Assembly (NCBI RefSeq): GCF_000331535.1
Contig: NZ_AMZN01000034.1
Location: 1-34,138, forward strand
DNA: 34,138 nucleotides
Origin: Fulvivirga imtechensis AK7
Lineage (GTDB): Bacteria; Bacteroidota; Bacteroidia; Cytophagales; Cyclobacteriaceae
Direction: 5' to 3'
Positions 2,816-33,788 of the stretch are shown here, piece by piece. Made by a program: the position numbers and the translations under genes. Under the pieces are notes generated by a model. The model ran no database searches. It was given only the letters and a program-made list of their open reading frames with translations, and was not told the DNA's origin. The number at the start of each line of letters is the position of its first letter. Position 1 is the first letter of the stretch.

Positions 2816-5800
2816 ATGATTAAAAAACTTCTGTTGCTCGCTTCTTTTTTTCACAGCTTTAATTGCCACATCGAGGCACAGGAGCGAGTGGGTTACGAAA
2901 TTTCCGATTATTCTACACAGTCGATTGGAGATTACGACCATGTAATCAGCGAAGATGAACCTTTTCTGTTCAATTGGTCCGCCCTCAAGTTAACCTATAC
3001 CGTGCCTGATCAGCCCCTGGAAGGAAGACTGGAGATATTAATTTCACCAGATAGCATACCAGATGCCAATGATGTCATTCTCTTAGATACACTCTGGTCG
3101 TTCGCCGGTTTTTCATATCAGGAGACTCAGGTGAAGCATACATTAGCGCCGCGTGAATACTACCTGCTCACCACTTTTTATGCCTCTGATACTGCTCATT
3201 TCTCACCACGAAGCAATATACTGAGAAAAAAGGCCCAGGTTTATAGCTATAAAATGTCAGTGACGGATGCTCATATCACTCACCTGCGTATATCCGAGTA
3301 TAATGAAGAGACAACCCTGCACCTGAACGTAACCCATAACCTTAGCTGCTGTCCGGATCTTTTAGGAACTTTCAACAGCCAGTTAGAAGTGTTGCTGAGT
3401 GAAAATGATCAGTTGACGGCAGATGATTTATCCATCAGCACGTTTTTTATAGAAGATACGTTGCAGGCTGGAGTTGATGAAAAGGAGTATAGCTCCAATT
3501 TATACGGAACACTTCAACTGGAAAGATATAGGTATCTGATAATAAGCCGGTCTTCAGCTTACTTCACCAATGGCTACAGGAAGGTTCCGGATCATTGGTG
3601 GGCGGTTCCGTTAAGAGTTGTAGAAAATATTGAAGAAGTTAATAAATCAAAGCGGGATAAACATCCTTTCCTCACCTATGGATCTTTCGAAATTCCTTCT
3701 GATACCCTTGAAAAAATAGATGTACAACAGCTTTACGATGAAGCTGAGGAATTTTTTGAACTGTACAAAAATGCGTTGAGTGCGATTGAAGTTAAGGATT
3801 ACAATCTTGCGCTGAAATGGACGGACGCTGCTTTTGCCTATGCTGGCAGCCATCGCTACAGTAGTTTGATCTATACGTCTCCCGACATGATCTCTGACTT
3901 GTATTCAGGGTTGTCCCACCTTTCTAATTATGATAACGAAAGGGAGACATTGTCTTTTCGCCTGGGGGAAGCTATGAAAATGAGCGATCTTATGGAGCAG
4001 GCTTATGAAAATCTGGTACGGAAGCTGCTTCCGGATAGCCTGGAATTGGCAGGAAACCTTGACGAAAGTGGTTTTTATGGCAACAAAGCTACTTTTGATC
4101 AGGAACTACTGTTTCAAGTGCCTGTGATCTGGAAACGCTATTCGCTTTCTGCTCTGCAGCATTTTATCCGGGTGCAGGATTACGAGTCAGCAGATCTTAT
4201 TATTCAGCAGGCTGGGAAACATATGAAATTGTACCTACCACTATGGCGTATGTTGTCGGGTAATGCTACCATGAAAGAGGCATTTCTTTACCTGGGAGGT
4301 ACACTTGTGGAAAGTAACGATATGCTGGATATGGCCTTGACTATGCTGGAGTTTTATACAGCTACAGGCTTATTCGAGGAAGGTAGGAATGCAGAAACGC
4401 TTGCAAAATTATTGTATGACTGTACGGATGGATCTTATCCTGCTGAATATTGGAAAACCATGGCGGCATTTGCTGAAACTACCGGCAATTGGAACGCTGC
4501 CGATTCTCTCTATGGCATGGTGGATAGTTATTACCAAAATCTACTTGAGAAACAGGAGAAAGGCACTTCGTTGGCGGGAAAATATTGGATGGAGACACAG
4601 CACAGAAATCTGTTTGGTGCTAAAACCGGTGCAGTGACCGAATTAAGTCAGTTGGAGAAGACTTTTACTAAGTACATGAGCAGCATTAAGAATGATGAAA
4701 ACGCTCTTTTCCTGTACATGGACCTGATTTCAAGCCGGCATGTGAGCAGGCTGGCCGGGTTTTTAGGTAGTTCTTATTACCCGGGACTTTACCTGCATAA
4801 CATCGAATCGCTGGAGGCGCAGGGAGAGTACTTCCTGGCCAGTGACTGGAAAAAAGAGCTTGCCTTTTTTCTTGGTCGAGATGGTCGGTATGAAGAGGCT
4901 TTGTCTATGTACCTAAGCCTGTTTGTTATTGAAAACATGAAGTCTCAGGCATTTCGGCTCTCTTTTTCGGAAGAAGCTCAGATATCCTACTTTGTCTTGC
5001 AGCAGGAAATGCTCAGTCGCTTCATGAGCCTCCTTGAAGAGATGCAGTCTGTGAATGAACCACACTTTGATCAGGCTTTGGAAGAGGCCCTAAAGCAAAC
5101 CTTGTTCTATCATTCCTACATTTTAAGGGGTACTTTCCGGATGCTCTATGATGTGTATCAATCGGAGAGCCCACAGGTGCAAATGCAATACGAAAAGTGG
5201 CGGCTATTGCGGGAATATCTCAACAAGTTGTATGTAGAAGGAAAAACTCAGCCAGACGATATTCATCTTCTGAAGCAGGAGATAGGTCAAACAGAAAGTG
5301 AAATGATTCGCTTGTCAAGGGATACAGCAAGCTTTTATTTTGACCACCTTCCGGATGCTGAGGCTATACGAAACCAGTTGAAACATGGAGAGGCGGCAGT
5401 TGAAATAGTAAGATATCGTGCAAACCATAAAGTATATCATGGTGGCGCATTGAAATATGCCGCTTTTGTGATCAGGAAGGATTCACAGGATGTAGGGTTT
5501 GTACATTTCCCCGATGGCGAAAAGCTCGAAACGCGGAGCTACCATTTTTACAACAACGCCATTAAGTATAAACAGCCTGATACGCTGTCTTACGGTGCAT
5601 TTTGGGAGCCCCTGGCAGCTCATCTGGCGGGTATAAAAAAAATATTCTGGGCACCTGATGGTGTTTTTCACCTGATCAACCCAGCTACTTTATTTAACCG
5701 TGAAACCCAAAGCCACCTTCTGGAAGAAATCGAGTTGGAGGTTGTGCCAACGATTAGCCAAATATCATCTGATGAACCTGTGGAGCTAAGTACAGCAATG

Positions 5801-6511
5801 CTACTCGGTAATCCCGAGTATGTAAAGGGTGAACGTTCGGAGGAAGCCACTACAGCGCCGACCACACGTAGCTCGTTACTGCAGAATAGACTCAACGGCC
5901 TTCCGGGAACCAAAACAGAAGTAGAGTGTATTGGATCTTTACTAAAAGATAATCAGATAGATATACACACGTTAATGTATCGTGATGCTACAAAACAGGC
6001 TATTTTTGCACACAATCAGGCTGATCTGCTCCATTTTGCCACCCATGGATTCTGGATGGACCTGCTACCCGGGGTTCCTGAACGTCATCAGCTATATGAA
6101 TCGCTGTCCGGTTCGGGACTGGTGTTGGCGCATGCTCAAATTCCGAAAGAGGATGGTTATCAATTGCGTCCAGAGGGTATCCTTACAGCAGCAGAGATCC
6201 AGGATATGTACTTGTTCAAATCAAAGCTGGTTGTGCTTTCCGCTTGTGAAACTGGGCTGGGAGAGGTGGTAGCCGGAGAAGGTCTTTATGGACTAAAACG
6301 AGCCTTCCAGCGGGCTGGGGTAGAAAACCTGGTGACTTCACTGTGGAAAGTGGATGATCAGGTAACACAGCAATTTATGGTTGAATTTTATCAGCGCCTG
6401 GTCAAGACTAAGGATTTGTCTGCTTCATTCAACAACACCATGATGGCTATTAAGGCGCAATATCCGGAGCCTTATTATTGGGGCGCGTTTGTGCTCACGT
6501 GTAACCGGTGA
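2816..6511 (+). CDS. Secreted TPR-CHAT domain protein (caspase-like peptidase)
   Basis: The 1231-residue protein opens with a hydrophobic N-terminus ending near HIEAQ, which looks like a Sec signal peptide. Residues about 30-270 form beta-rich, fibronectin-like segments. Residues about 300-760 are helical and repeat-like, in keeping with divergent TPRs. The C-terminal 330 residues are a CHAT domain (caspase HetF associated with TPRs): LHFATHGF carries the probable catalytic H1077 and LSACETGLG carries C1144, followed by the conserved GEGLYGLKRAFQRAGV and SLWKVDDQ segments. Both dyad residues are present, so it should be an active cysteine peptidase. Export separates it from cytoplasmic CHAT effectors of defence systems. 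Its substrate is unknown. It stands alone, with the divergent abiE genes upstream and a repeat-rich spacer downstream. Confidence 0.85.
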   Translation: MIKKLLLLASFFHSFNCHIEAQERVGYEISDYSTQSIGDYDHVISEDEPFLFNWSALKLTYTVPDQPLEGRLEILISPDSIPDANDVILLDTLWSFAGFSYQETQVKHTLAPREYYLLTTFYASDTAHFSPRSNILRKKAQVYSYKMSVTDAHITHLRISEYNEETTLHLNVTHNLSCCPDLLGTFNSQLEVLLSENDQLTADDLSISTFFIEDTLQAGVDEKEYSSNLYGTLQLERYRYLIISRSSAYFTNGYRKVPDHWWAVPLRVVENIEEVNKSKRDKHPFLTYGSFEIPSDTLEKIDVQQLYDEAEEFFELYKNALSAIEVKDYNLALKWTDAAFAYAGSHRYSSLIYTSPDMISDLYSGLSHLSNYDNERETLSFRLGEAMKMSDLMEQAYENLVRKLLPDSLELAGNLDESGFYGNKATFDQELLFQVPVIWKRYSLSALQHFIRVQDYESADLIIQQAGKHMKLYLPLWRMLSGNATMKEAFLYLGGTLVESNDMLDMALTMLEFYTATGLFEEGRNAETLAKLLYDCTDGSYPAEYWKTMAAFAETTGNWNAADSLYGMVDSYYQNLLEKQEKGTSLAGKYWMETQHRNLFGAKTGAVTELSQLEKTFTKYMSSIKNDENALFLYMDLISSRHVSRLAGFLGSSYYPGLYLHNIESLEAQGEYFLASDWKKELAFFLGRDGRYEEALSMYLSLFVIENMKSQAFRLSFSEEAQISYFVLQQEMLSRFMSLLEEMQSVNEPHFDQALEEALKQTLFYHSYILRGTFRMLYDVYQSESPQVQMQYEKWRLLREYLNKLYVEGKTQPDDIHLLKQEIGQTESEMIRLSRDTASFYFDHLPDAEAIRNQLKHGEAAVEIVRYRANHKVYHGGALKYAAFVIRKDSQDVGFVHFPDGEKLETRSYHFYNNAIKYKQPDTLSYGAFWEPLAAHLAGIKKIFWAPDGVFHLINPATLFNRETQSHLLEEIELEVVPTISQISSDEPVELSTAMLLGNPEYVKGERSEEATTAPTTRSSLLQNRLNGLPGTKTEVECIGSLLKDNQIDIHTLMYRDATKQAIFAHNQADLLHFATHGFWMDLLPGVPERHQLYESLSGSGLVLAHAQIPKEDGYQLRPEGILTAAEIQDMYLFKSKLVVLSACETGLGEVVAGEGLYGLKRAFQRAGVENLVTSLWKVDDQVTQQFMVEFYQRLVKTKDLSASFNNTMMAIKAQYPEPYYWGAFVLTCNR

Positions 6512-32675: not shown

Positions 32676-33431
32676 ATGCGGTTAATAAGAATTGATGAGA
32701 AGGATCATGGCAAGGAGATATTCAGGATATTTCCCATGCAATGGTTTTTGGATGTACTGGAGAATAAGCGTCTTACCTTCGTTAAGCCCAGGCTTTGGAA
32801 AGATCCTATGGACCGGCTGATATTTGAATATTATTTTCACGCTCCTGATGAGAGCAAAATAAAAGTGGAGTGCCGTGATGACTATTTTGCCCAGTGCTGG
32901 ACCTTGAAATATGAATCTCATGCATTATGGAGTGAATATGCACCTTTACATGATGGAGTAAGGGTAAAGACAACCATAAAAAAACTTATAGAGCTGTTTC
33001 GAGAGCATCCTCTTAATAATAAGGATCATTCGTGGTTTATGGGTCAGATAGACTACCTGCCCATAGATGACATCAAAAAGTGGATAGGGAAGGAGCTGCC
33101 CTACAAAAATGTGGAGTATCATTCTCCATTAGGGCAGGTACATACTTTACTTATCAAACTACATCAGTATAGTCATGAGCAGGAAGTAAGGATCATATTT
33201 AATTCAAATGGCGAAAAATCCATTAGAAATTCCGAGCTATTCTGTGGACTAAACATAGAGCCGCTTGAATTATTTGACAGGCTTTTGCTTGACCCCAGGA
33301 TGCCAGAGAACATATACCAGGTGTATAAGGAGAAATTTATAGCATACGGTTTTGATGCGGACCAGATCATACGGTCCGAGCTTTACGATGAGGAGCTACT
33401 CAAGCAAAAGCTACTTCAGAATGCCAAGTAG
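32676..33431 (+). CDS. DUF2971 domain protein
   Basis: The 251-residue protein fits DUF2971. The usual marks are visible: an N-terminal strand-helix leading to LTFVKPRLWKDPMD (33-46), corresponding to the family's NDP/E region; FAQCWTLKYESHALWSEYAPLHDGVRV (in part residues 71-97), the CWS...W..Y...GV pattern; and a YSHEQEVRIIF segment (165-175) matching the conserved W..E.E.R. The biochemical function is unknown; members occur in accessory regions and some are near defence genes. It follows a repeat island and is followed by the convergent RiPP precursor. Confidence 0.75.
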   Translation: MRLIRIDEKDHGKEIFRIFPMQWFLDVLENKRLTFVKPRLWKDPMDRLIFEYYFHAPDESKIKVECRDDYFAQCWTLKYESHALWSEYAPLHDGVRVKTTIKKLIELFREHPLNNKDHSWFMGQIDYLPIDDIKKWIGKELPYKNVEYHSPLGQVHTLLIKLHQYSHEQEVRIIFNSNGEKSIRNSELFCGLNIEPLELFDRLLLDPRMPENIYQVYKEKFIAYGFDADQIIRSELYDEELLKQKLLQNAK

Positions 33432-33545: not shown

Positions 33546-33574
33546 AAAAAAAAGCCCGAAGCAGAGCAACGGGC
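33546..33574 (-). terminator. Intrinsic terminator of precursor peptide gene 2
   Basis: On the minus strand GCCCG ... CGGGC (33570-33574 with 33554-33558) is followed directly by a run of eight T (33546-33553). It lies about 35 nt past the stop codon of the precursor gene and shows that the gene is monocistronic. Confidence 0.75.
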
Positions 33575-33608: not shown

Positions 33609-33788
33609 TCAACACGAGTCATCGCTGCATATCTGCGCACCTTGTGACAGGCAGGCTATTTTCACGGATTCTCCTCCGCAATAAAATCCTGACCATCCTC
33701 CTTTGGCAGTAGCAAAAGACTCATCTTTCAAACGAGTTACAAAACTCTGCACTTTCAATTGCTCTAGTTCAATTTTTTTCTTTTTCAT
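33609..33788 (-). CDS. Pinensin-like class I lanthipeptide precursor (59 aa)
   Basis: This 59-residue precursor has the leader MKKKKIELEQLKVQSFVT followed by RLKDESFATAKGG: the basic start, the LKVxSFVT box and a double glycine at 30-31. That is the same leader type as the gene at 171-317. The core of 28 residues contains four Cys (C37, C46, C54, C59) and five Ser (S33, S41, S48, S55, S58) but no Thr, so any rings would be lanthionine, not methyllanthionine. The two cores share no clear sequence, only the leader and the Cys count. An 18-bp element found before the first precursor gene occurs here at nearly the same distance. A terminator follows. No modification enzyme, transporter or peptidase is next to it. 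Confidence 0.82.
   Translation of the reverse strand: MKKKKIELEQLKVQSFVTRLKDESFATAKGGWSGFYCGGESVKIACLSQGAQICSDDSC

Follow-up and report, generated by a model that had tools for sequence, protein, structure and literature searches.

The gene P0001, which lies on the minus strand at positions 33609-33788 of the window (the whole 34,138-nucleotide stretch of Fulvivirga imtechensis AK7 DNA analysed here), very probably specifies a class I lanthipeptide precursor of the pinensin family whose maturation takes place in trans, through a single enzyme set that tolerates many substrates. The assignment draws on a leader model, on relatives of the gene and on the conservation of its core. The open reading frame of 59 codons runs from an ATG start to a stop codon and its product includes LKVQSFVT and GG, just as the initial annotation had described. 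The leader of 31 residues, MKKKKIELEQLKVQSFVTRLKDESFATAKGG (33696-33788, minus strand), ends in GG, the presumed cleavage site. The core that follows, WSGFYCGGESVKIACLSQGAQICSDDSC (33612-33695, minus strand), has 28 residues, and counting after the GG gave the same four Cys, five Ser and no Thr that had been noted before. The NCBIfam model NF038180 (pinensin family lanthipeptide) spans residues 4-31 of P0001 with 41.7 bits (E 8.1e-11), well above its curated cut-off of 24 bits. It was the sole NCBIfam match of P0001 at E up to 1, and a Pfam search at the same limit gave no match. The peptide had been proposed as a RiPP precursor of unnamed family, and the leader now gives it one. The leader family itself is already curated by NCBI and single members are known.

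A terminator of its own had also been ascribed to the gene. By eye and by script, a terminator-like site was found at 33546-33574 on the minus strand, in which a GCCCG/CGGGC stem encloses a loop of 11 nt (33554-33574) and is followed by a run of eight T (33546-33553); the automatic terminator scan left it unlisted because its loop limit is 8 nt. The folding of the hairpin stretch is unexceptional alone (z -1.24; an equally good fold was reached by 23 of 200 shuffles). A script identified hairpin-plus-T sites in the 120 nt that follow eight of the genome's 32 precursors, whereas the average over 20 single-base shuffles was 0.25. A search for TAnnTTTG promoters upstream of P0001 found none, and the same was true for most of the 32 precursors. 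A DUF2971 protein (32676-33431; Pfam PF11185, 23.3 bits) adjoins P0001 in the window, but none was found next to the P0001 relatives.

The annotation had called P0001 the second precursor with the same leader, and the first was presumably the 48-residue open reading frame at 171-317 on the minus strand, whose core, ADRCTGCMSTCGILPPTGTPCGE, is unrelated to that of P0001. Its leader also falls into NF038180, so that the two leaders belong to one HMM family, yet with 24.6 bits it is barely above the cut-off of 24. BLASTP of P0001 against this precursor, the first Met being omitted, aligned only six residues (E 0.071), and the kinship of the two therefore rests on the HMM. G002, G006 and G014, three further Fulvivirga genomes, also contain relatives of the 171-317 precursor. 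The window also encodes at 2816-6511 what appears by eye to be a large TPR/CHAT-type protein, and a second protein of this appearance is encoded at 3154-6492 of locus L038, directly upstream of the lanthipeptide genes on C9.

The two window genes are part of a large repertoire. With E limited to 10, NF038180 matched the genome (6.7 Mb in 225 contigs, 98.5% complete) 34 times, and 31 of these matches, spread over 19 contigs, reached the cut-off; a second leader model, derived from 30 of the genome's leaders and applied to the sequence stretches retrieved, recognized 32 precursors. Only five of the 31 lie on C81, the contig that carries the enzyme genes, whereas 26, both window genes among them, lie on other contigs. 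The claim of like leaders with unrelated cores held for the whole set. The leaders within the genome are 49% identical on average, and the cores are 23.8% identical, a value that shuffling one member of every pair changed only to 22.9% (465 pairs, three of them above 50%). The pairwise comparisons of leaders and cores excluded matches below 24 bits, loci L041-L070 and identical duplicates where loci overlap; one core of fewer than 15 residues was omitted from that of the cores, and the L006 core was taken from an earlier GG there. Cys makes up 12.4% of core residues and 0.1% of leader residues in this genome, and 31 of the 32 cores contain it. Since the paralogous cores are as dissimilar as shuffled sequence, an enzyme acting on all of them would need great tolerance. 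Some cores may be poor substrates. Cores without Cys were found in three of 91 precursors, and a precursor inside the C81 enzyme cluster (L024) has such a core. The precursors at L077 (a minus-strand open reading frame with the core VGRRR) and L112 have a recognisable leader and a core without Cys and are apparently degenerate, which suggests birth and death of members of the pinensin-leader family.

Modifying enzymes are encoded elsewhere in the genome. The genome-wide enzyme search covered Lant_dehydr_N and LanC-like domains, and both were found on C81 and C9 and nowhere else. The C81 set, which does not adjoin P0001, consists of a split LanB, namely LanB1 (1013 residues, PF04738) and LanB2 (337 residues, PF14028), and a LanC of 651 residues with the motifs CHGAPG and CHGGGG, which we take to be its zinc-ligand motifs. 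Beside these genes are a C39 peptidase/ABC exporter (730 residues, PF03412 and ABC domains), a 432-residue protein without Pfam match that resembles a membrane-fusion protein by eye, two TPR histidine kinases and a LuxR-type response regulator; five precursors lie among or beside the enzyme genes. LanB1 (L036, 14386-17424) has long Lys/Glu-rich low-complexity stretches, and its relatives measure 896-951 residues in eight single-leader genomes and 973-1051 residues in seven genomes with at least 14 leaders. The set on C9 (L038, 768-1892 and 7226-11657; L130) is a second class I set comprising a SPASM protein, a LanC, a LanB and an adjoining precursor, whose leader is nearest to NF038158 and NF038153 (both class I lanthipeptide models, both below cut-off). 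The C9 LanB matches LanB1 with 46 bits over 101 residues and is no near relative. Given this distance and the unlike leader of the precursor that adjoins the C9 enzymes, the set to which the pinensin leaders point is that of C81, the one pinensin-type enzyme set found in the genome.

Class I dehydratases use glutamyl-tRNA. From the enzyme families we infer a route that would proceed in trans throughout. The LKVxSFVT leader would be recognised by the C81 split dehydratase, in which LanB1 would glutamylate (Lant_dehydr_N) and LanB2 would carry out the elimination (Lant_dehydr_C), so that Ser residues of the P0001 core would be dehydrated. LanC would then use the four Cys to form up to four lanthionine rings, and the C39 peptidase/ABC exporter of the C81 cluster would cleave after the GG and export the product.

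The distribution of leaders and enzymes over genomes bears on this route. Among 15 genomes of the genus Fulvivirga (leader E up to 0.001), four contain 31, 22, 19 and 14 leaders, five contain one and six none; LanB was found in all nine leader-positive genomes and in none of the six leader-negative ones (Fisher p 2e-4), and the relative of LanB1 in Fulvivirga kasyanovii JCM 16186 scored 68%. Where a genome has one leader only, as is the case in five, a LanB lies within about 5 kb of it. In G014, which is assembled as a single contig, 16 of the 19 leaders are more than 20 kb from its LanB. The 225-contig assembly of the window's genome means that C34 and C81 may be linked there, though the G014 relative of P0001 lies about 1.6 Mb from the LanB. 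The LanC of G014 appears as two overlapping open reading frames (L080, 14005-15264 and 15192-15947), perhaps owing to a frameshift or an assembly error.

A survey of the family (295 genomes, 84 genera; leader E up to 1e-4, LanB1 relative E up to 1e-20) found 20 genomes with a leader, 49 with any LanB and 19 with a LanB1 relative. All 19 of the latter were within the 20 leader-positive ones (Fisher p 5e-29, a value that ignores relatedness), and the exception without a LanB match, G192, is 81% complete. At least four genera of the family include genomes with 14 leaders or more; as the best 26 leader candidates per genome were scored, the survey counts for G000, G027 and G061 are minimum values. 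The annotation had proposed one promiscuous enzyme acting on several precursors, and the near-perfect co-occurrence of leader and LanB1 over the 295 genomes supports this proposal. Together with the 31 precursors and the C81 set, it strongly suggests that one enzyme set modifies the dispersed precursors. A LanB tree, from which G050 (LanB in fragments) and G192 were left out, does not support a single clade of expanded genomes. The sister of the four expanded Fulvivirga genomes in this tree is G003 plus G008, each of which has one precursor, and the expanded G061 falls outside both groups. Of the 16 inner branches eight are open, and the most distant sequences have long branches; no single origin is claimed.

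It is improbable that P0001 is modified by another system, either the C9 class I set or a radical SAM or ATP-grasp enzyme, and carries a different crosslink. C9 does provide a LanB, a LanC and a SPASM-domain protein, and a graspetide-like precursor can be seen by eye elsewhere in the genome. However, C9 has its own adjoining precursor with a different leader, and G002, G006 and G014 carry relatives of P0001 while their LanB matches lie only in the C81-type cluster. The leader was, moreover, present in 19 of 19 genomes with a LanB1 relative but in only 19 of the 49 with any LanB. The graspetide-like peptide (L120, 1559-1744) is followed by a 325-residue open reading frame which by eye resembles an ATP-grasp enzyme; the peptide itself had no NCBIfam match at E up to 0.001. 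Somewhat less credible still is a Cys-rich secreted disulphide peptide that is no lanthipeptide and uses its leader for C39 export only. GG leaders do occur on unmodified peptides too, but of the 276 family genomes that lack the LanB1 type, 275 lack the leader as well.

The conservation of the core was found to agree with a lanthipeptide precursor modified by the C81 set. Searches of 14 further Fulvivirga genomes gave full-length relatives of P0001, core included, in three, namely G002, G006 and G014, at 75-78% identity (76% in G002). The other 11 genus genomes searched contained none, and none was found in plasmids. The four Cys are invariant across the four species, and the C-terminal 19 residues of the core vary at two positions only. 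The first core Ser is Thr in all three relatives, so this position remains dehydratable. Codon counts for the four species gave pS 0.69 and pN 0.09 over the gene as a whole, the synonymous sites being close to saturation; pN/pS was 0.15 in the leader, about 0.12 in the core and 0.04 in the last 19 codons. These counts indicate that the P0001 core is under purifying selection. That this core persists in four species suggests that it yields a definite product and is no random member of a library.

Reciprocal best hits with core identity of at least 40% gave orthologues for ten of the 32 precursors, 22 being without one by this rule, and six orthologue groups, including those of both window precursors, span all four expanded Fulvivirga genomes. 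Over 18 orthologue groups, 550 of 552 Cys, 708 of 803 Ser/Thr, 502 of 559 Gly and 1948 of 2672 remaining residues were kept; the selection at core identity of at least 40% inflates the overall identity but leaves the order of the residue classes unaffected. Each pair was counted both ways in these comparisons, which did not include the G007/G011 pair or, in one group, the G009 row. Cys and Ser/Thr conservation is thus compatible with lanthionine rings in the P0001 core, and that Ser/Thr in the cores are kept more often than the remaining residues, Gly and Cys apart, speaks against a mere disulphide peptide. The possibility that P0001 is a relic leader copy, spread by duplication and no longer made or modified, is the most doubtful of all, for although some family members look degenerate (the three cores of 91 without Cys), no TAnnTTTG-type promoter precedes the gene and its genomic position is not conserved, its core is under purifying selection while synonymous sites are nearly saturated, every Cys is kept and a terminator-like site is present.

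No synteny of P0001 with its relatives was found, apart from one weak match (31%) of a distant window protein in L096. Neighbouring genes are shared among the three relatives but differ from those in the window. The contig continues for only 350 nt upstream of P0001, so that a good comparison was confined to one side. As P0001 and its relatives share no neighbours, their orthology rests on sequence.

The prochlorosins, which belong to class II, are the best known natural many-substrate lanthipeptide system. In marine picocyanobacteria one enzyme, ProcM, serves about 30 precursors with a shared leader family, many of them far from the enzyme gene. The F. imtechensis system is alike in having many unlinked precursors per enzyme set, a shared leader and unrelated cores. 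It differs in class, leader and phylum: the prochlorosins depend on a class II LanM and Nif11-type leaders in cyanobacteria, whereas here class I LanB1/LanB2/LanC enzymes are combined with pinensin-type leaders in Bacteroidota. No LanM is part of the C81 set, and the NCBIfam search with P0001 returned no Nif11-type leader. It is fairly likely that we are dealing with a class I counterpart of the prochlorosins, in which one LanB1/LanB2/LanC set would act in trans on about 30 dispersed precursors, a subset of them stably inherited and each perhaps with its own product or role. The stable inheritance of a subset of cores, together with the purifying selection on that of P0001, is the basis for allowing each its own product or role.

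Published accounts provide several points of reference. Passages of a review give 29 prochlorosin precursors (PMC12328550), and passages of a mining study describe many of them as distant from the enzyme with a leader family in common (PMC7268733). The pinensins of Chitinophaga (NF038180, class I), whose biosynthesis uses a split LanB according to the same passages (PMC7268733), resemble the present system in leader family and in split LanB plus LanC, the likeness being one of leader model and domains. The Fulvivirga genome differs from them in having 31 leaders, 26 of them off the enzyme contig, and cores that are unrelated. Pedobacter PedA15.2 is likewise a class I lanthipeptide from Bacteroidota, alike by class and phylum, and its leader can be cleaved by the GG-type protease domain LahT150, as stated in passages of PMC12328550. 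A pinensin-like cluster is reported from six strains in passages of PMC9248904, and the cluster classes of F. kasyanovii 48LL include lanthipeptide, the passages concerned containing no precursor count (PMC12565237). The dispersed layout of class I lanthipeptide genes was not found described in the passages searched of the pinensin, prochlorosin and Bacteroidota lanthipeptide literature, which is absence and not proof. According to passages of PMC7268733, mining there covered seven genes either side of a LanC-domain protein and thereby missed distant prochlorosin precursors. Under this limit, most Fulvivirga precursors would be missed too, and mining of enzyme neighbourhoods alone would overlook most such peptides. 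If our reading is correct, a class I set with dozens of natural substrates would be a new engine for ring peptides, and its precursors would form a natural set for studying how leader-guided enzymes tolerate unrelated cores.

A side finding concerns the RNA motif DUF805b (Rfam RF02914), which lies just upstream of the start codon in five precursors of the genome (L002, L003, L006, L011 and L029; one of the five copies is slightly below the gathering score) and not upstream of P0001. Its start lies some 55-64 nt ahead of the ATG in several different RiPP-like short peptide genes (L119-L130 included) and also precedes the C9 precursor (L130). The searches scored the best 150 first-look candidates per genome. 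The window's genome has at least 12 good copies, 11 of 12 being located before short peptide open reading frames of several kinds. Among the 38 of 53 genus matches that had a locus, 28 precede open reading frames of fewer than 120 residues, 12 of these being pinensin-leader precursors. A role of DUF805b as a precursor-specific regulator was considered and rejected: the motif occurs in 96 of 395 genomes of the phylum and, in the 29 phylum loci inspected, stands ahead of many unrelated genes, and it is therefore not RiPP-specific. No mention of DUF805b, or of DUF805 together with "RNA motif", was found in the literature searched. The structure line of RF02914, as printed, contains one helix only. 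A second helix can be drawn in which three bases before GAAAA pair with three after GAGTA. Among the 38 genus copies, perfect pairing was found in 27 of 37 distinct sequences, with six different triplets, compared with a mean of 8.2 and a maximum of 16 in 2000 shuffles (uncorrected for relatedness), and this covariation supports a putative pseudoknot formed by the second helix.
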